A stretch of DNA of 42,273 bases, from the IMG/VR virus record IMGVR_UViG_3300045996_001555, positions 1 to 42,273 of that record. One strand, 5' to 3'. Below, in pieces: positions 4,783-42,273 of this stretch (position 1 is its first letter; each line of letters starts with the position of its first letter). Both the position numbers and the translations under genes were made by a program. The stretch is from a virus. Below the pieces are notes generated by a model. It was given only the letters and a program-made list of their open reading frames with translations. It was not told the origin of the DNA and did not search any database.

Positions 4783-5901
4783 ATGGCCGACACTCGCGCT
4801 AATGCGAATCTCACTCCCGAAATCTGGGATGAGAACTTCTTCACCGAATACCTCACCGAAAACCGCTACAGCGGCGAGATGGGGACGAACGAGAACAACG
4901 TCATCCAGGTTCGAGAAGACCTCTCGAAGAAAAAGGGTGACCGGATCAACTTCGCCCTCGTCAACAAGCTGTCTCAGGATGCCGTCACTGGTCGTGCGAC
5001 CATGGAAGGCAACGAAGAGGAGATGGGCACTCGCTCGTTCGAGCTGGCCGTTGACAAGCGCCGTAATGCGGTGCGCGTCGCGGAAATCGACGAGCAGTTC
5101 TCCGCGATCTCCCTCCGCGACGCTGCCAAGTTCGTCCTCAAGGACTGGGCGATGAAGGACACTGAACGCCTCATCACCCGTGCTCTTGGGAACTGCGGCG
5201 GCGTCCTGATGAACGCGACCGACATTGCGGCCGCCGGCAATCAGGCGGCTCTCGACGCCTATCTGGTGGACAATGCTGATCGCTTCTTCTGGGGCAACAG
5301 CGCCTACACCGCCAACACCGACTTCAGCGCTGGTCTCGCCACGCTGACCTCTGGCACGGCGGCCGAGCGTTGCACTGTCGCCAACCTCGACGCCATGAAG
5401 TTCATGGCGATGAATCGTGCGAACCCCAAGGTTCGTCCGATCCGCTCGGAAGGCGACGGCAAATACTACTACGTTGTCTACGTCCACCCGCTGGCGTGGC
5501 GTGACCTCAAGCAGGACACGACCCTCACGGCGGCTCAGCGTGAAGTCCAGATCACCATGGAGAACAACCGCCTCTTCAAGGGCGGCGACATGCTCTGGAA
5601 CGGCATGATCCTCAAGGAAGCTCACGACCTCTACGACTACTCGACCCTGACCGCTCTGGGCGACTCGTCAACGACCGTCGTGCCCGCGTTCCTCTGCGGC
5701 GCTCAGGCTGTCGGTGTGGCGTATGCCCGCCGCTGGCGTTCGAAGACCGAAGAGTTCGACTACGGCGACAAGCACGGCGTCGAGACTTCGGCCATCTACG
5801 GCGTCGGCAAGATGGTCTTCGGCTCTGGTGCCGGTGATCGTGACGACCTCAAGGACCACGGCGTTGTGACGGGCCTCTTCGCCTCGTCCACTGCGGCGTA
5901 A
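4783..5901 (+). CDS. Major capsid protein
   Basis: This 372-residue protein directly follows the scaffold and is the only candidate for the shell subunit. It begins NLTPEIWDENFFTEYLTENR, reminiscent of the N4 gp56/DUF4043 capsid family with an HK97 fold. It continues with the EDLSKKKGDRINFALV segment, in which a predicted E-loop-like region is followed by a SFELAVDKRRNAVRV stretch. The start has AAAGGA upstream. There is no cleavable N-terminal delta domain and no separate protease gene, consistent with a P22-like assembly using a scaffold. Which coat family it belongs to is less certain than its role. Confidence 0.85.
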   Translation: MADTRANANLTPEIWDENFFTEYLTENRYSGEMGTNENNVIQVREDLSKKKGDRINFALVNKLSQDAVTGRATMEGNEEEMGTRSFELAVDKRRNAVRVAEIDEQFSAISLRDAAKFVLKDWAMKDTERLITRALGNCGGVLMNATDIAAAGNQAALDAYLVDNADRFFWGNSAYTANTDFSAGLATLTSGTAAERCTVANLDAMKFMAMNRANPKVRPIRSEGDGKYYYVVYVHPLAWRDLKQDTTLTAAQREVQITMENNRLFKGGDMLWNGMILKEAHDLYDYSTLTALGDSSTTVVPAFLCGAQAVGVAYARRWRSKTEEFDYGDKHGVETSAIYGVGKMVFGSGAGDRDDLKDHGVVTGLFASSTAA

Positions 5902-9595: not shown

Positions 9596-11158
9596 ATGGC
9601 GCTCGCTTACCCCGGCTTTGCCGTCCCTCAGGGCTATGAGCAGAACCCCGACATCATCGGGCGCTTCGCTCAGGGCTTCGACCTCAGCCAGAAGATCGGC
9701 AACGAGCGCGATGCTCAGCGCACGCTCGGGGATTACGTCAAAAGCCTCTACATGGGCGGCGAAACCGCGCCCGCTCAGCCGGACAAAATCACTGCTCTGG
9801 TCAATGGCTCGCATGCCGCTGCAACAGCAGCGACCGATCCGACGCTCGACTCCTACTTCAAGGCGATCCGCGCCGCTGAGAGTGGCGGCAATGACGCTGC
9901 CCGCAATCCCAACAGCACCGCGACGGGGCGGTATCAGTTCCTTGAGGGAACGTGGAACGGCCTCATGCAGACGCATCCCGAGCTGGGGCTGACGCCTGAG
10001 GGTCGGAACGACCCGACGCAGCAGGAAAGGGCGATCCGCGCCTTCACCAGCGACAACATCAAGGCGCTTCGTGGCAAGGGCATCGGCATCAACCCCGGCA
10101 ACCTCTATGCCGCCCACGTCCTTGGTGCCGGGGGCGCGTCCGGAGTGATTGGTCAGGATGATGCAACCCCGCTCGCTACCGTCTTGTCACCCGATGTCAT
10201 TCAGGCGAACCCGAACCTCGCCAGTATGACGGTCGGTGACTTCAAGCAGTGGGCCGCAAACAAGGCCGGGAACGGTCAGGGCGGCTATCAGGCTCCGATG
10301 GCACCGCAGGACGCGGGCAGCCCCTCGGGCGCCCCGCTGACCTCTACGGCATCATCGGCAGGCAACGGCCTGCCTCCGCGCGACGTGATGATGGCGCTCA
10401 TGCGCAATCCCGAGACCCGCGCCTTCGGAGCGCAGCTCATTCAGGCCGCTCAGGGCGGCAAGGCCACTGACGACATGCGAGAGTACGCCTATGCGCGAGC
10501 GCAGGGCTATCAAGGATCATTCGCGGATTGGCAGACGAGCAAGACGAAGGGCACGACCGTTAACGTCAACAGCGGATCAGATGATTTCTACACTGCCGCG
10601 GACAAGAAGCGGGGCGAGGATTTTGTCGCCACCGAAGTCGCGGGGACGCAGGCAGCATCCAAACTCACGCAGCTGGGGCGGCTCGAACAGCTGCTCAGCA
10701 CCCCCGGCACTCAGGGCGTAGAAGGTGCGTGGAAGAGCCTTGCGGGCCAGTTCGGCATCAACTCTGAGGGGCTGGACGACATCCAGGCGGCTCAGGCGCT
10801 CATCAACAGCATGGTCCCCGACCAGCGCCAGCCCGGTTCGGGTACCATGTCCGACGCGGACCTTGCTCTGTTCAAGGCGTCCATCCCGCAGATTATCAAC
10901 CAGCCCGGCGGCAACGCGCTCATCATCCAGACCCTGCGAGGCATCGCCACGTACGATCAGGAGATTGGCCGCATCGCAACGCAAGTCCTCGACCGTGAGC
11001 TCACACCTGCACAGGGCCGCGCGGCAATGGCGCAAGTCACCAACCCGCTCGAAGCGTTCCGCACGAAAGAGCAGCGCACCGCCGACACTGTGCCCGAGGG
11101 CGTCGATCCTCAGTTGTGGGAACTAATGCTTCCCGAGGAGCGCGCCGCATGGCAATGA
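9596..11158 (+). CDS. Internal virion protein with lytic transglycosylase domain
   Basis: This 520-residue protein carries an SLT/lysozyme-fold domain around residues 82-200. The catalytic glutamate is probably E95 in RAAESGGND, followed by ATGRYQFLEGTWNGL (109-123), the usual second motif of this fold. Such proteins locally open peptidoglycan when DNA is injected. The C-terminal two thirds are helical and Gln/Ala-rich with no other known domain, and probably form the ejected conduit. It begins one base after the preceding stop and overlaps the next gene by 10 bases. Confidence 0.8.
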   Translation: MALAYPGFAVPQGYEQNPDIIGRFAQGFDLSQKIGNERDAQRTLGDYVKSLYMGGETAPAQPDKITALVNGSHAAATAATDPTLDSYFKAIRAAESGGNDAARNPNSTATGRYQFLEGTWNGLMQTHPELGLTPEGRNDPTQQERAIRAFTSDNIKALRGKGIGINPGNLYAAHVLGAGGASGVIGQDDATPLATVLSPDVIQANPNLASMTVGDFKQWAANKAGNGQGGYQAPMAPQDAGSPSGAPLTSTASSAGNGLPPRDVMMALMRNPETRAFGAQLIQAAQGGKATDDMREYAYARAQGYQGSFADWQTSKTKGTTVNVNSGSDDFYTAADKKRGEDFVATEVAGTQAASKLTQLGRLEQLLSTPGTQGVEGAWKSLAGQFGINSEGLDDIQAAQALINSMVPDQRQPGSGTMSDADLALFKASIPQIINQPGGNALIIQTLRGIATYDQEIGRIATQVLDRELTPAQGRAAMAQVTNPLEAFRTKEQRTADTVPEGVDPQLWELMLPEERAAWQ

Positions 11159-12984
11159 CCAAAGAGCAGGCGATCGCTCTGGCGTCGGCGCGCAAGCGTC
11201 TGGCCGACCAGCAGCAGCCCGCGGCGCCACAGCAGCCCGCGCCTCCGGGCGACATTGGCGACGTGCTCAGCGCTGGCTTCACGTCAGCCGTAAATGCCGT
11301 CCCCTTCGTTGGTCCGTCGCTCATGTCGGGCCTCAACAACGTCAAGGCCGCCGTTCACGGCGTTCCGGTCGAAGAGATCGCGGCTGAGAATACGCAACTC
11401 GAGGAGCAGAACCCGGTCGCGTCCGTGGTCGGCTCTATTGCCGGCCCCACCGTAGCACTCGCTCCGCTGGGCGCTACCGCACTTGGCGGCCGCCTCCTTG
11501 GCCTCACGGGCAGCACTGGTTCGCGTGTCGCACTGGGCAGCCTGTCTGGCGGCGCAATCGCTGGCGGTGACTCTCTCGTCGCCCGTGGAAGTGATCCCTT
11601 GGAAGCCCTCACCGACGCCGGAATTGGCGCCACCATTGGCGGGGCTCTACCGATCGCCAGCAAGGGCGCGGGATGGCTTCGTGACCTTGTGCTCGGTCGC
11701 TCGGCACCGAAGGAAGCACAGAACATCGCCCGCGCGCTCCGTGACGATGACGTGCCCATCGATCAAATCAACCAGCGGCTCCAGCAGCTCGGCCCCGACG
11801 CCATGGTGATGGACCTTGGTCCGAACATTCAGTCTCAGGCCGGTGCGGTTGCCTCGGTGCCTGGTCCGGGTCAGCGCGTCGTGCGCGAAGCGGTCACGCA
11901 GCGCGGCAGGGGAGCGCCGGGGCGCGTTCAGGCCGACGTTGATGCAACCATCGGCACCGGGCCGGAGATCGGCGCCCTTCGTGACAGTATCGTACAAGCT
12001 CAGCAGACTGCAGCCGCGCCCCTCTATGACGCGATCCGGGACGTGGCGATCGAAGCCCCTCCCGCACTTCGCGCCATCCTTCAGCGCCCGCAGGGACAGC
12101 AGGCGATCCGCGATGCGGTCCAAATGGCCGCGAATGACGGCTATCGTTTCCCGACCAGTGGCAATGTCATGACTGTTGGACTGGCCGACTACATCAAGCG
12201 GTCCCTCGACGATATCGCCAGTGCGGCTGGACGAGCAGGGAAGAACAACGAAGCCCGCACCGCTCGGAACATGGCGCGCGCCATCACTTCGACGGTGGAT
12301 CGGCTGGAGCCGCGTTATCGGCAGGCCCGCGATGCGTTTGCCGGCCCCGCGCAGGTGCTCGACGCCATCGACACGGGAACCAGCGCCTTCAACCGCGATA
12401 TGTCGCCCGCCCAATTGCGCCGTGAACTCGCTGCCCTCTCCCCGTCTGAGCGGGAAGGCTTCATTCAGGGCGCACAGGCTCAGGTCGAAGCCATGATGGG
12501 CAATGCGGTCAACGACGCCGCGACCCTCCGCAACACCTTCCGCAAGGGCTGGAACGAGTCGAAGCTGAGGATCCTGCTGGGTGATGATGTGGCAAACGAT
12601 TTGCTCCGTCGCATCGACCGCGAACTGACGTTTGGGCAGACCTCGAACGCTGTCGCCTCCAATTCCGAGACCGCGCGGCGGTTGGCCGCTCAGGGCGAGG
12701 TGAACCCACAGACGGGGACAGTTGCAGTACCGGGCCGGACAATCCTCGGCCTTGTGACCGAGGCATTCAACGCGGCGCGGAACGGCATCCAGGGCGTGCG
12801 CCAGCCACAGATCAATCGCGGCATGGCGGACCTGCAGACCGCTCGCCAGTTGACACCGGAACAAGTCCGCCTCTTGCAGAACGGCAACCGCGCCACTCGT
12901 CCCGGCACGCTCCCACCGGCCGCAGTCTCCGTCACCGAGCAGCAGCAGCGCCGCCAACCGATTGAGATCACCGTAGGGCGCTAG
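11149..12984 (+). CDS. Large internal virion / ejection protein (predicted)
   Basis: This 611-residue protein has no catalytic motif. Residues about 85-190 contain a long run of Gly, Ala, Leu and Val with three or four possible membrane segments (for example VGSIAGPTVALAPLGATALG), and the rest is helical and Gln/Arg-rich. This layout, after two other ejection-type genes, fits a protein that enters or crosses the host membrane during genome delivery. ATG 11149 is chosen because GAGGAG lies about 10 bases upstream; an in-frame GTG exists at 11116. The stop TAG at 12982-12984 lies in a CTAG shared with the opposite-strand gene. Confidence 0.68.
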   Translation: MAMTKEQAIALASARKRLADQQQPAAPQQPAPPGDIGDVLSAGFTSAVNAVPFVGPSLMSGLNNVKAAVHGVPVEEIAAENTQLEEQNPVASVVGSIAGPTVALAPLGATALGGRLLGLTGSTGSRVALGSLSGGAIAGGDSLVARGSDPLEALTDAGIGATIGGALPIASKGAGWLRDLVLGRSAPKEAQNIARALRDDDVPIDQINQRLQQLGPDAMVMDLGPNIQSQAGAVASVPGPGQRVVREAVTQRGRGAPGRVQADVDATIGTGPEIGALRDSIVQAQQTAAAPLYDAIRDVAIEAPPALRAILQRPQGQQAIRDAVQMAANDGYRFPTSGNVMTVGLADYIKRSLDDIASAAGRAGKNNEARTARNMARAITSTVDRLEPRYRQARDAFAGPAQVLDAIDTGTSAFNRDMSPAQLRRELAALSPSEREGFIQGAQAQVEAMMGNAVNDAATLRNTFRKGWNESKLRILLGDDVANDLLRRIDRELTFGQTSNAVASNSETARRLAAQGEVNPQTGTVAVPGRTILGLVTEAFNAARNGIQGVRQPQINRGMADLQTARQLTPEQVRLLQNGNRATRPGTLPPAAVSVTEQQQRRQPIEITVGR

Positions 12985-37575: not shown

Positions 37576-37772
37576 GCGACACGATCGACGCATTCCCGAC
37601 ATTCGTCCCTTGGTACGGGCGCACGATGCTTCGCATCCCCAAAGACCCAGCCACGCCAGAGGAGCAACGGCTTCGCGCGTTCGCTCGGCAGTGCCGCGTT
37701 GATCGGATCAAGGCCAACGTTGAGAAGGCGCCGTCCGTGTCGATGTTCGTTTGGGAGGAGCGCGCAGCATGA
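37572..37772 (+). CDS. Unknown 66-residue protein
   Basis: A short protein with an aromatic start (FPTFVPWYGRTMLRIPKDPA) and a basic helix (EEQRLRAFARQCRVDRIKAN). It overlaps RusA and GcrA genes by ATGA, so it is part of one translational chain. No family is recognised. Confidence 0.58.
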   Translation: MSDTIDAFPTFVPWYGRTMLRIPKDPATPEEQRLRAFARQCRVDRIKANVEKAPSVSMFVWEERAA

Positions 37773-38281
37773 GGACCAAGGGCGCAAGCAAGTGGACCGA
37801 GGCGCAGGACAGTGACCTCCGCCGCATGTGGGACGTAGAGGGCCTATCGTCCGGGGACATCGCCCATGTCATGGGCATGACCCGCAACGCGGTGATCGGC
37901 CGCGCGCGTCGGCTCGATCTGTCGATGCGCGCCAGCAAGGTCCAGCCGCGCATCAAGCCCCGCAAGACGTATGAACTGGCAGCGCCGCGCAAGCCGCGTC
38001 CGGTGCTCAACGCCATGCGCCAGCCTGGACCGGTGTTCTTGTCCGCGCCTGACATGAAGTTGCTGCGCGGCGCGGCTTGGTCCCCGCTACCTGGCACAGC
38101 CCCGGTGACGCTGGTCGATCTCGACCGCGGCATGTGCAAGTGGCCCGTTGGCGATACTGCCCCGTTCCTATTCTGCGGCGCCTCATGTGAGGGCTCCTAT
38201 TGCGAGACCCATCAAGCCCTGTCTGCGGGGCAGGGGACGCCAAGCGAGCGCGACGCCCACAAATGGAAGGAAGCCGCATGA
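37769..38281 (+). CDS. gcrA: GcrA-family cell-cycle regulator
   Basis: This 170-residue protein matches GcrA: an N-terminal HTH with WTEAQDSDLRRMWDVEGLSS and then TRNAVIGRARRLDL (38-51), a basic linker, and a C-terminal domain with CKWPVGDTAPFLFCG (123-137) and EGSYCETH (141-148). In Caulobacter, GcrA binds sigma-70 RNA polymerase and responds to adenine-methylated GANTC DNA. A phage copy could redirect host transcription. ATG 37769 overlaps the previous stop. Confidence 0.88.
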   Translation: MRTKGASKWTEAQDSDLRRMWDVEGLSSGDIAHVMGMTRNAVIGRARRLDLSMRASKVQPRIKPRKTYELAAPRKPRPVLNAMRQPGPVFLSAPDMKLLRGAAWSPLPGTAPVTLVDLDRGMCKWPVGDTAPFLFCGASCEGSYCETHQALSAGQGTPSERDAHKWKEAA

Positions 38282-38598
38282 AGTGCCCGTGCTGTGGCGG
38301 CGACATGCCCGCCGTAATCCCCACGACAGCTCTTTCGGCAATCCCCATGCCCGACAGCGAGCGTACGATCCTTGACCTGGCTATCGCCTCGTATCCGCGC
38401 GCGGTGATGACACAGACGATTACCAACGCTCTCTGGGGTCTCCGTGCCGACGGCGGCCCGATGGAGCCCGAAAACGGCATCGGCGTCCGCGTCCACCGGC
38501 TGAACAAGAAGATCAAGCCCGTTGGCTGGCGTGTCCGCGCCGTCAACAACGCCTTTCATGGCCGCCGCCTCGAGCCCATCGGAGATGCACATGCATGA
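38278..38598 (+). CDS. Zinc-ribbon and winged-helix-like protein
   Basis: This 106-residue protein begins MKCPCCGGDMP, a CPxC-type knuckle with C3, C5 and C6. The remainder (RTILDLAIASYPRAVMTQTI, then GIGVRVHRLNKKIKPVGWRV) resembles the winged DNA-binding domain of OmpR-type regulators. It overlaps the GcrA stop as ATGA. It may regulate transcription with GcrA. Confidence 0.68.
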   Translation: MKCPCCGGDMPAVIPTTALSAIPMPDSERTILDLAIASYPRAVMTQTITNALWGLRADGGPMEPENGIGVRVHRLNKKIKPVGWRVRAVNNAFHGRRLEPIGDAHA

Positions 38599-38935
38599 GA
38601 ACGTGGTGAGCTTGTTCGAACAGCCCGCGCCAGCTCCGGCCGGCGATTTCGAGGCCATTTGGAAGCTATGGCCCAACAAGGCGAAAAAGGTGCTCGCCAA
38701 GGCCAAGTACGACGCAATTCTAAAGGGCGGGTTCAAGACCCGCACGCTGGACAAGGACAGCGGGCAATATGTCGAGATCGAGCTGGCAGCCAGCCCGGAT
38801 GAAATCCTCGCTGGCGTGAAGGCCTATGTGACCGCCCAAGTCGATCGGCGCACCTTCAAATTGAAGGATGACGGCAAGTTCATCCCGCACCTCGCGACCT
38901 TCCTGAATCAAGGCCGGTGGGAGGACTTTCAATGA
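38585..38935 (+). CDS. Replication-protein-like C-terminal module
   Basis: This 116-residue protein has the pattern FEAIWKLWPNKAKKVLAKAK, a SPDEILAGVKAYVTAQ helix and KFIPHLATFLNQGRWEDFQ at the end. This is the standard C-terminal domain of phage replication initiator or helicase-loader proteins, here as a small stand-alone gene. ATG 38585 and ATG 38591 are both possible. No helicase or polymerase gene accompanies it, so host replication proteins are probably recruited. Confidence 0.72.
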   Translation: MHMHENVVSLFEQPAPAPAGDFEAIWKLWPNKAKKVLAKAKYDAILKGGFKTRTLDKDSGQYVEIELAASPDEILAGVKAYVTAQVDRRTFKLKDDGKFIPHLATFLNQGRWEDFQ

Positions 38936-38961
38936 CCTGTGGAAAACCCGCAAACCCCACT

Positions 38962-39003
38962 TGTTCCGGGCCTTTCCTGGGCAGTGTTCTGGTAATGTTC
39001 CAG
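38962..39003 (+). repeat. Three short repeats, iteron-like
   Basis: TGTTCCGG (38962-38969), TGTTCTGG (38985-38992) and TGTTCCAG (38996-39003) follow the replication-protein gene directly. Three 8-base similar units could be initiator sites, but the spacing is irregular (23 and 11 bases). The support is weak. Confidence 0.35.
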
Positions 39004-39012
39004 TGAAAATAA

Positions 39013-39397
39013 GAGGGGCAAACGGTACCCGCCGCGCCCCTCAACCTCGGTCTCTCAGCAGATCACCCGAGGCACCAACGGTAATATATTACCGCGACGT
39101 GGAGCGCAAGCAAATGATGTGCGGTACGGGCGCCGGTCCCCATAGCGAGGCCGGAAACAAAAAACACCAGGTGCGCGTGACCCATAGCGCCCTGGGCCTC
39201 CACGAGCCGGGCAACCCCCGGAGCGGTCCGAAGGCCATCAAGCCGTCCAACCGAGTTGGCTACTCGGGACAAGGCTCGATGGTGACGCCAGCCGTAGAAA
39301 ATGGCGTCAGAGCAACGTGCGGGGAACCCGCTCGGGGGCGTAAGCCCGAAAAGGCACTGAGTATGCGCACTCGCAAGAGTGTCCTCTTAGCCAGAGG
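39013..39397 (+). ncRNA. Hairpin-rich non-coding stretch, candidate structured RNA
   Basis: About 530 bases (38936-39469) lack a convincing gene, and 39013-39397 can fold into a row of hairpins: GAGGGGC/GCCCCTC (39013/39036), CCTCGG/CCGAGG (39045/39067), a 16-base palindrome CGGTAATATATTACCG (39079-39094), GAGGCC/GGCCTC (39147/39195), CCGGG/CCCGG (39207/39217), CCGAGT/ACTCGG (39251/39262), GACGCCA/TGGCGTC (39284/39302), GCGGG-GAA-CCCGC (39319), GGGC-GTAA-GCCC (39336), CACTC-GCAA-GAGTG (39368) and CCTCT/AGAGG (39383/39393). Two loops are GNRA on the plus strand, which sets the likely direction. No known RNA family could be recognised. Confidence 0.6.
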
Positions 39398-39469
39398 CTC
39401 CAAGTAAGGGCAGTCGCTCATACCGTGGAGGCAGAAAAGGGTGATCTATGAGCAGAGCGAGGCAGCAGC

Positions 39470-39691
39470 ATGATCGGTGGCAAGGACAACCGCGATCCCC
39501 GAGACGCTGGTCCAGATGATGGGCCAAGCAGGCACTATGCGAGGCCGGTTGAGATGGGACTGCGCGTGATGCTGATGAGCGGGAGCAATGCTCAGAAGGT
39601 CCGGGCGCTGTTCTCGCTGTGGAAGTCCGAGGGCTTCATTTCCGACCTCGGGATCACCGCGTTCAACGCCGAAAAACGAGTGCGCAAGTAG
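39470..39691 (+). CDS. Unknown 73-residue protein
   Basis: A small basic protein. The first half is polar (GGKDNRDPRDAGPDDGPSRH), and the second half looks folded (SNAQKVRALFSLWKSEGFIS, then DLGITAFNAEKRVRK). It follows the hairpin-rich stretch. The ribosome site is poor, but an upstream 23-codon frame (ATG 39447, with AAAAGGG before it) overlaps its start and could couple it. Confidence 0.45.
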   Translation: MIGGKDNRDPRDAGPDDGPSRHYARPVEMGLRVMLMSGSNAQKVRALFSLWKSEGFISDLGITAFNAEKRVRK

Positions 39692-39769: not shown

Positions 39770-40111
39770 ATGACTGAACTGACTTTCAGCGGCCTTCGAG
39801 CGGGCAACGAAGCGCGTCAGGCGCACTGGGGCGGCTCCGACAACTGGACGCTCAGCGACTGGTCCAACGCCGTGGCTGGGGAAGTGGGCGAGGCCTGCAA
39901 CGTGGTCAAGAAAATCCGCCGAGTGGAGCTCGGGACCGCGGGCAACAAGAAGCCCACCGAGGCCTACTACGACCAGCTCGAAACCGAGATCGGCGATGTC
40001 CTCATCTACCTGGACCTCCTCGCTGCCAAGGCTGGCCTGTCGCTCGATGGCTGTGCGCGCCGTGCCTTCAACGAAAAATCCGATGAACTGAAAATGCCGG
40101 TCCACATCTAA
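39770..40111 (+). CDS. MazG-like nucleotide pyrophosphohydrolase
   Basis: This 113-residue protein has the EExxE-ExxD metal-binding pattern of the all-alpha NTP pyrophosphatase family: E38 and E41 in AVAGEVGEACNVVKK, and E73 and D76 in LETEIGDVLIYLDLLAA. Phage MazG proteins break down NTPs or the alarmone ppGpp and keep host metabolism active. GGAAATCGAG lies before the ATG. It starts a group of genes separated by short gaps with repeated leaders. Confidence 0.85.
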   Translation: MTELTFSGLRAGNEARQAHWGGSDNWTLSDWSNAVAGEVGEACNVVKKIRRVELGTAGNKKPTEAYYDQLETEIGDVLIYLDLLAAKAGLSLDGCARRAFNEKSDELKMPVHI

Positions 40112-40951: not shown

Positions 40952-41608
40952 ATGGGGCGGCAATACGGAGGCGATGCACGGCACTGGTACGCGATCGATG
41001 TCGTTCGCCAGAAGGAGTACGTGGCGGGCCATATCTTCCAGCGGATGGGGTGCGAGACCTTCATCCCCACAGAGACGCGCTACCGCAAGCGCAACCGCTA
41101 CGCCAAGGCGAAGATCGAGGTCGCATACGCAGCCCTGCCGGGCGTCGTCTTCGTTGGCTTCCCATCAGCGCCGGATTGGTATCGCGTGATGTCGATGCAC
41201 CTGGTCAACGGCGTCCTGTCCTACGACGATCACCCGCGCCGCATCGACCCCGAGGACAAGCAATGGGTTGCCTACCGCTCGTCGCAGAACGATGGCTATC
41301 TCGTCATCGAGCGCGTCAAGCAGAACCGCTACATTCGAGACCTCAAGACCCGAGCCGATGTCGATGTCAGCGCCGCCAGCATCCACGTAGAGGGCAAAGG
41401 CGTTCTCCGCGCTCCTGCCGTCCAGAAGCACATGAAGACCAAGCGCGAGTTTGGCGAAGGCGCCAGCGTCATGGTTTCAGACGGGCCATTCCGCTTCAGT
41501 GCCGGCAAGGTCATCCAGATCACCGGCCATCGCGCCAAGGTGCTGCTACCTCTGTTCGGTGGAGAGACAGCCATCGACATTCCACTGCAGAATCTCGAGG
41601 CGGCTTGA
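40952..41608 (+). CDS. NusG/RfaH-like antitermination protein
   Basis: This 218-residue protein has an NGN-like N-terminal domain (HWYAIDVVRQKEYVAGHIFQ, then a TFIPTETRYRKRNRYAKAKI segment and LPGVVFVGF) and a C-terminal KOW-type domain (GEGASVMVSDGPFRFSAGKV, about 168-203). Specialised NusG paralogues travel with RNA polymerase past terminators. It is the last early gene, followed by a terminator hairpin and then the terminase genes. This makes it the best candidate for a late-gene activator in place of lambda Q. Confidence 0.82.
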   Translation: MGRQYGGDARHWYAIDVVRQKEYVAGHIFQRMGCETFIPTETRYRKRNRYAKAKIEVAYAALPGVVFVGFPSAPDWYRVMSMHLVNGVLSYDDHPRRIDPEDKQWVAYRSSQNDGYLVIERVKQNRYIRDLKTRADVDVSAASIHVEGKGVLRAPAVQKHMKTKREFGEGASVMVSDGPFRFSAGKVIQITGHRAKVLLPLFGGETAIDIPLQNLEAA

Positions 41609-41950: not shown

Positions 41951-42273
41951 GTGACTTTCACGGCTAAGCAGATCGAGCAGCACAAGGCAGCCATCTGCGA
42001 CCGTATCGCCAATGGCGAAAGCCTGAGGCAGATTTGCGACGACGAAGCGTTGCCCGCCTGCTCAACTGTGTTCCTTTGGCTCAAGGATGATGCCGCCTTT
42101 TCGGAGCAGTACGCACGCGCGCGCGAAGCGCAGGCTGACGCCATCTTTGACGATATTCTGACAATCGCCGATGACGGTCGCAATGACTGGATGGAGCGCA
42201 AGAACGCTGACGGCCAAAACATTGGTTGGCAGGAGAACGGCGAGGCCATGCGGCGCTCCCAGCTTCGCATAGA
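41951..42273 (+). CDS. terS: Terminase small subunit, N-terminal part (continues at base 1)
   Basis: GTG 41951 opens the frame, with the sequence TFTAKQIEQHKAAICDRIAN followed by a helix-turn-helix (LRQICDDEALPACSTVFLWL). The frame runs off the end and continues at base 1 of the window (42147 equals base 1), ending at 302 for a total of 165 residues. It recognises phage DNA for packaging. GAGGTAGT before the start is a fair ribosome site. Confidence 0.85.
   Translation, partial: MTFTAKQIEQHKAAICDRIANGESLRQICDDEALPACSTVFLWLKDDAAFSEQYARAREAQADAIFDDILTIADDGRNDWMERKNADGQNIGWQENGEAMRRSQLRI
42147..42273. repeat. Exact terminal direct repeat, right copy
   Basis: Identical to bases 1-127. It lies within the small terminase gene. 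The unique genome is therefore bases 1-42146. Confidence 0.95.

Follow-up and report, generated by a model that had tools for sequence, protein, structure and literature searches.

We identified a structured RNA on the plus strand, at positions 39013 to 39450 of a viral contig of 42,273 nucleotides (the whole stretch analysed, called the window here), and show that its family is not among the catalogues searched. It represents a new RNA family of bacterial phages, prophages, and mobile elements, the members of which have a shape in common while the letters have changed; the job of the RNA is unknown. What is categorically new is the RNA family and its fold; for the wider group of large structured phage RNAs there are precedents. 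To our knowledge, only a few large structured phage RNAs are known (GOLLD and ROOL), and their functions are unknown. The present work contributes another family, which has a fold of its own backed by compensatory changes, together with a search model for the 3' domain (R1) and members found in integrase-bearing phages. In this RNA, a long-range helix (S1:S3) closes the core together with a pseudoknot. Our best explanation, to which we give a probability of about one-half, is that the RNA acts as an independent, trans-acting two-state molecule; the function is inferred only, without transcript data.

RESULTS

The RNA comprises approximately 440 bases with approximate ends and is divided into a 5' domain (39013 to 39156) and a core (39157 to 39450). 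A sequence-only reading of the window had proposed an undescribed, hairpin-rich phage RNA at 39013 to 39397. That the region makes a structured RNA outside Rfam was borne out by covariation, codon-position rates, and negative Rfam searches, and the hairpin-rich fold agreed with the finding that 38960 to 39470 folds better than dinucleotide shuffles (z = -4.9, with 0 of 100 as good). The proposed 5' edge was supported by hairpin counterparts in relatives, whereas the 3' edge fell approximately 55 bases short of the true end at about 39450, and the 55 bases left out hold S3, the strand that closes the core, and the tail of the pseudoknot.

The family currently has 25 members: the window, 18 IMG/VR contigs, one fragment, and five loci in bacterial genomes. 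The first homologue, L020, was obtained through a terminase scan, and its positions 5010 to 5448 align to 39038 to 39473 of the window with 74% identity; searches with neighbouring proteins gave no RNA homologues. IMG/VR was searched with conserved blocks as DNA patterns, and the matches, checked by profile searches, were L151, L101, L186, L187, L142, L192, L195, L202, L111, L194, L200, L198, L179, L201, L199, L193, L196, and the fragment L169. Homologues were collinear with the window over 39038 to 39473, and from AATAAGGG onward. R1, a covariance model of the 3' domain, gave 69 to 118 bits for the phage members (which match by construction), 37 for the fragment, and at most 16 for unrelated loci, and it found the five bacterial loci, with 36 to 60 bits, in approximately 1,600 sampled genomes; within the loci searched, members (at least 36 bits) and noise (at most 16 bits) were separated. 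The bacterial-genome loci were detected by the 3' domain only, and all five have a hairpin A upstream, with inner stem and CCC loop in changed letters (read by eye; for example, GTGT/ACAC and TGT/ACA). Three of the bacterial-genome members, L211, L212, and L214, have in common a 5' domain (GATGAATGACCGC...) that is longer and of another kind, which suggests a subfamily.

Outside these sources, exact-pattern scans of 84,980 species genomes returned nothing or only chance matches, and when several members were compared by BLAST with 50,697 named phages and 72,556 plasmids, there was no match except one 33-base chance hit. Rfam 15 lists no member, the window has no match at gathering thresholds, and at relaxed E-values (up to 10 for the window) no credible match fell on the RNA, either in the window or in the phage and bacterial-genome members scanned. 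A minus-strand match to Rfam sX5 (23 bits) was rejected as being below the gathering score of 50 and on the wrong strand. The family was not found described in text searches of the open literature, which is weak evidence since subscription papers are missing.

The core was tested in a MAFFT alignment of 13 members (A3) with a named structure of 42 pairs. The proportion of paired cells was 96.9%, compared with 77.3% in shuffles; 29 of the 42 pairs had two-sided changes, and there were 91 double-change cells versus 24.5 expected. None of 500 shuffles reached the observed values on five measures, and when partners were slid as a control, pairing fell to 24 to 48% (below 48% for a slide of one column). 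For the 3' domain, consisting of hairpins H and I and S2:S3 (A1, 19 sequences), 91.5% was paired and 81 double-change cells were observed versus 22.8 expected. Because the structure was derived in part from the same sequences, it has an advantage over its slid versions, and the relatedness of the sequences inflates shuffle tests; even so, all shuffles were exceeded on the two measures that relatedness affects least (pairs and types). For strands listed by hand, a pairing of 100% is not independent evidence. In the 3' helices, G-U pairs outnumbered A-C pairs (18 versus 6), a bias in the aligned letters that favours the plus strand as the RNA strand. Substitution rates at the three codon positions of a 148-codon frame across the region were 0.32, 0.33, and 0.29, and relatives differ in length by non-multiples of 3, with stops breaking the frame in several. 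Since the codon positions vary equally, the frame is not a gene. The sequence-only reading would have been refuted by codon-wise conservation of this frame or by a lack of covariation in its stems, and neither was observed.

All features are given on the plus strand. The 5' domain starts with a hairpin GAGGGGC/GCCCCTC (39013 to 39042), and in the corresponding position L020, L151, L101, L186, and L187 have hairpins of other letters. In hairpin P1, CCTCGG (39045 to 39050) pairs with CCGAGG (39067 to 39072); a paired change on both sides gives CGTCGG/CCGACG in L020, L151, L101, and L186, while L187 has CCTCGG/CCGAGG. Hairpin P2, GGTAA/TTACC (39080 to 39093), has paired changes across six members, and the conserved block GTGGAGCGCAAGC (39099 to 39111) is identical in six members. 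A minimum-energy closing helix of approximately 39045 to 39068 with 39440 to 39463 was rejected; it is not conserved, and its 5' strand forms the local hairpin P1. A repeat of CCCATAGCG, reported earlier at 39139 and 39181, was retained in part: the second copy, in the loop of hairpin A, is conserved, but the first is not. Because relatives carry CCACAAGAAGCG and the like at the position of the first copy, the alignment indicates that the two-copy repeat is probably due to chance.

Hairpin A (39167 to 39195) has an outer stem CCAGG/CCTGG (39167 to 39171 and 39191 to 39195), an inner stem GCGC/GCGC (39173 to 39176 and 39187 to 39190), and a loop containing ACCC (39180 to 39183), with two-sided changes in eight of its nine pairs. 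Directly 3' of it lies S1, GCCTCCAC (39196 to 39203), which provides the 5' strand of S1:S3, the long-range helix that closes the core. Hairpin B, CCGGG/CCCGG (39207 to 39221), was 100% paired with two-sided changes in two pairs. Helix C (39235 to 39239 with 39278 to 39282) carries hairpin D (39251 to 39256 with 39262 to 39267), and 18 members showed 16 different strand pairs here, all complementary (strands chosen by hand). RNAalifold gave GGUC (39225 to 39228) with the loop of hairpin D as a second possible contact, with changes on one side only. Hairpin E, GACGCCA/TGGCGTC with loop GCCGTAGAAAA (39284 to 39308), was 100% paired, six of seven pairs having two-sided changes. Hairpins F (GCGGG/CCCGC) and G (GGGC-GTAA-GCCC, 39336 to 39347), which together occupy 39319 to 39347, have similar hairpins in most members; register shifts occur among members, and the evidence for them is not column based.

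The block CTGAGTATGCG (39357 to 39367), unpaired in the model, was invariant in all 19 phage members, with the reservation that TGAGTATGCG formed part of the search pattern; in bacterial-genome members it has diverged to GAGTAATCGG, AAGTACGCG, and GAGTACCTAG. Every pair of hairpins H (CACTC-GCAA-GAGTG, 39368 to 39381; 5/5) and I (CCTC/GAGG with loop TTAGCCA, 39383 to 39397; 4/4) had two-sided changes. The hairpins with GTAA and GCAA loops of the GNRA type, pointed out in the first reading, do exist and are conserved in relatives, where other stable tetraloops (UUCG, CUUG, and GAAA) replace these loops. Directly 3' of hairpin I is S2, CTCCA (39398 to 39402), and S3, GTGGAGGC (39425 to 39432), is followed by an A-rich linker AGAAAA and the tail GGGT (39439 to 39442), the two together spanning 39433 to 39442. 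The start-codon-like ATG after the tail (39448 to 39450) opens a 23-codon frame in the window.

S3 is complementary to both S1 and S2 and covaries with both. The S1:S3 helix was predicted by RNAalifold without being given a structure; of 18 phage members, 17 have it with 5 to 9 bp, and in 14 the shuffle P value is ≤0.015; it is weak in L199, L193, L196, L213, and L214. Among bacterial-genome members, it is perfect over 8 bp in L212 and not significant by shuffling in L213 to L215. The alternative helix, S2:S3, covaries on its own, with 95.6% paired, two-sided changes in four of seven pairs, and a covariation score reached by 0 of 500 shuffles. The three strands S1/S2/S3 change together, reading TTC/TTC/GAA in L020, TAC/TAC/GTA in L192, TGC/TGC/GCA in L202, and GTC/GTC/GAC in L200 and L179. 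Because S3 is complementary to and covaries with both partners, the comparison suggests that S1:S3 and S2:S3 may be two exchangeable states. Folds forced into one or the other differed by 0.3 to 14 kcal/mol (ignoring the pseudoknot), with S1:S3 preferred in 11 of 14 and S2:S3 in 3, and were nearly equal in energy in L020 and L202. The double complementarity of S3 could be partly historical, S1 and S2 being alike; the arrangement of the three strands gives a direct mutational test.

The pseudoknot joins xCCC in the loop of hairpin A to GGGx' in the 3' tail, and its variable pair is A-U in most members, C-G in L195, L201, and L196, and G-C in L199 and L193. Another pairing of this loop with the end, CATAG:CTATG, fails in L193, L196, L200, and L201, whereas xCCC:GGGx' holds with changes.

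Positions 1 to 127 and 42147 to 42273 of the 42,273-base contig form a 127-base direct terminal repeat, and because of this repeat the contig is probably a complete phage genome, circularly permuted or terminally redundant. The window also carries a GcrA-like cell-cycle regulator (37751 to 38281; Pfam E = 4e-23); as this regulator is known from Alphaproteobacteria, it points to the class of the host. Gene calls around the members are mechanical open frames, mostly without annotation. In the window, the RNA lies between a replication-initiation-like gene (38591 to 38935) and an unassigned 73-amino-acid frame, followed by a MazG-like gene (39770 to 40111); a NusG-like antiterminator gene (40952 to 41608) stands between the RNA and the terminase, which lies across the circle. 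In the window, L020, and several others, the RNA is downstream of replication genes and 1.6 to 5.4 kb upstream of a same-strand terminase. Elsewhere it lies by apparent repressor or recombination genes (L111 and L194) or near lysis-like genes on the other strand (L179); it is followed by a convergent gene in L194, an opposite-strand frame in L215, and a GC-rich terminator-like inverted repeat, GAGGCCCGC...GCGGGCCTC, in L202 (read from the sequence; the mechanical scan did not list it). An integrase was present on 8 of 17 source contigs. Of the bacterial-genome loci, two are beside an integrase (one also by a minor tail protein), one is beside a serine recombinase, one is beside terminase, prohead protease, and portal genes, and one is on a contig with plasmid Rep3 and ParA. 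The label of phage RNA is thus right for the phage members but too narrow for the family. Because neighbouring genes differ among members and are sometimes on the opposite strand, the RNA is probably independent of its neighbours. A late-operon leader or NusG-dependent antitermination is not general: no NusG-like frame was seen near the RNA in L020, and the contexts in L111, L194, L202, and L215 also disfavour it.

In L101, a 155-amino-acid HNH_3 endonuclease frame (10768 to 11235, minus strand; E = 2e-12) starts at the ATG of the RNA end. At the start of the unit, GTTGCTATGG restores the RNA end; the last part of the unit is CAGAAAAGGG, after which comes the original end, TGAGCTATGGCC, so that CAGAAAAGGG is duplicated around the unit. 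The simplest reading, an inference, is that a homing gene entered a conserved site and rebuilt the 3' end of the RNA, which implies that this end matters. Separately, a sub-threshold match to a group I intron (32 bits, E = 2e-4) was seen in L142 at 11568 to 11704 (plus strand).

DISCUSSION

We infer that the RNA, made from the DNA of phages and mobile elements, would work in trans as an independent folded molecule. During transcription, the local S2:S3 hairpin would form first; as the tail emerges, S3 would switch to S1 and the tail would dock on hairpin A. The RNA would then have two states, one open and one locked, and only in the open one would the tail, usually with a start-codon-like triplet, be reachable. 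The tail would be the likeliest site of contact with a partner, for which the ribosome is a first guess. The link to the ribosome is weak, because the Shine-Dalgarno strength of the tail was not above that of composition-matched shuffles (mean, -9.9 versus -9.1 kcal/mol; standard deviation, 2.7) and four members (L111, L196, L198, and L200) have no start codon after the tail. The fuller proposal, a new class of mobile-element RNA in which one strand is kept complementary to two rival partners, so that a 3' tail able to bind the ribosome of the host, or some other host factor, in infection can be opened or locked, is tentative, and we would not rely on it.

A cis role is not excluded, because same-strand genes follow closely in many members. 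In its specific form, the RNA would be a leader controlling translation of the frame at the 3' ATG/GTG and also, through a stop codon that overlaps a start codon, translation of the gene after it. The GGG of a ribosome-binding site would be hidden in the pseudoknot and exposed in the S2:S3 state. In favour of this, 21 of the 25 members have ATG or GTG after the tail, the triplet having changed to GTG in L212 and L213, stop and start codons overlap or nearly so in L142, L179, and L199, the HNH gene of L101 is read straight from the RNA-end ATG, and the terminase often lies downstream on the same strand. However, the downstream frames are unrelated and often only 3 to 25 codons long, the terminator-like repeat of L202 and the convergent gene of L194 come directly after the RNA, and both the missing start codons and the negative ribosome-site comparison count against a leader, which we consider a possible but rather doubtful explanation.

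Another candidate is an RNA of the GOLLD/ROOL type that serves in assembly or as a scaffold; such a phage RNA would be abundant and form a compact or multimeric particle. The phage and prophage location, the pseudoknots, the conserved loops, the absence of a fixed protein neighbour, and a 5' domain that varies while the 3' core is conserved, as for GOLLD (PMC12286853), agree with this idea; the size, about half that of many GOLLD RNAs or less, the absence of a tRNA gene from the window, and the lack of sequence or model similarity to GOLLD or ROOL make it unlikely. A self-cleaving or self-splicing ribozyme of a new type could account for a compact pseudoknotted core with the invariant unpaired blocks CTGAGTATGCG and GGCAGAAA and, as in introns, for an endonuclease gene inserted in one copy. 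We hold this to be quite improbable: as in the first reading, which had found no intron cores, the Rfam models of group I and II introns matched the RNA in none of the members scanned, and in the window the RNA does not interrupt a gene, the one upstream having ended at 38935. It is harder still to see the RNA as a guide or partner of an HNH nuclease, like the omega RNA of IscB. An HNH gene lies directly behind the RNA in L101, and HNH-looking frames (without a domain scan) are nearby in L169, L179, and L111, but the window, L020, and L151 have no adjoining HNH gene, such genes are common in phages, and the copies of the RNA 3' end flanking the L101 unit are what homing into an RNA gene would leave. 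A DNA-level element (an origin or packaging site) or a 148-codon protein gene, for which the frequent location between replication and terminase genes and the open frame in the window might speak, can practically be dismissed given two-sided paired changes with a G-U bias and equal change at the codon positions.

The trans-acting, two-state RNA that we prefer has features of several known systems. As in translational riboswitches, two helices that exclude each other lie next to a possible ribosome-binding site, and the riboswitch criterion of mutual exclusion is met, S1:S3 and S2:S3 sharing S3 and both covarying. Unlike riboswitches, the RNA has no conserved downstream gene and no known ligand, a start codon does not always follow the tail, and its neighbours are unrelated among members instead of being genes of one pathway. 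It resembles group I and II introns in being compact and pseudoknotted and in carrying an HNH endonuclease gene once, but it differs in the absence of an Rfam match on the RNA and of any split gene seen (not all members were covered). HEARO and the omega RNA of IscB are likewise structured RNAs, and one member here is directly 5' of an HNH gene; in our family, however, this gene occurs in few members only, apparently inserted, the members scanned have no Rfam match to HEARO or the omega RNA, and the neighbours in the window are not IscB. GOLLD is often found near tRNA islands, a trait not seen in the window, which has no tRNA gene, and the GOLLD Rfam model did not match the window or the phage and bacterial-genome members scanned, even at relaxed thresholds. 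Like our RNA, GOLLD is a large structured phage and prophage RNA of unknown function with a conserved 3' and a variable 5' part, although many GOLLD RNAs exceed 800 nt (PMC12286853), compared with about 440 bases here. ROOL, of which the RNA studied has 659 nt (PMC12286853), gave no sequence or Rfam model match in the window and members scanned and is similar in being a phage and prophage RNA with multiple pseudoknots. Overall, GOLLD and ROOL are the nearest known kind of RNA to the family described here (PMC12286853).
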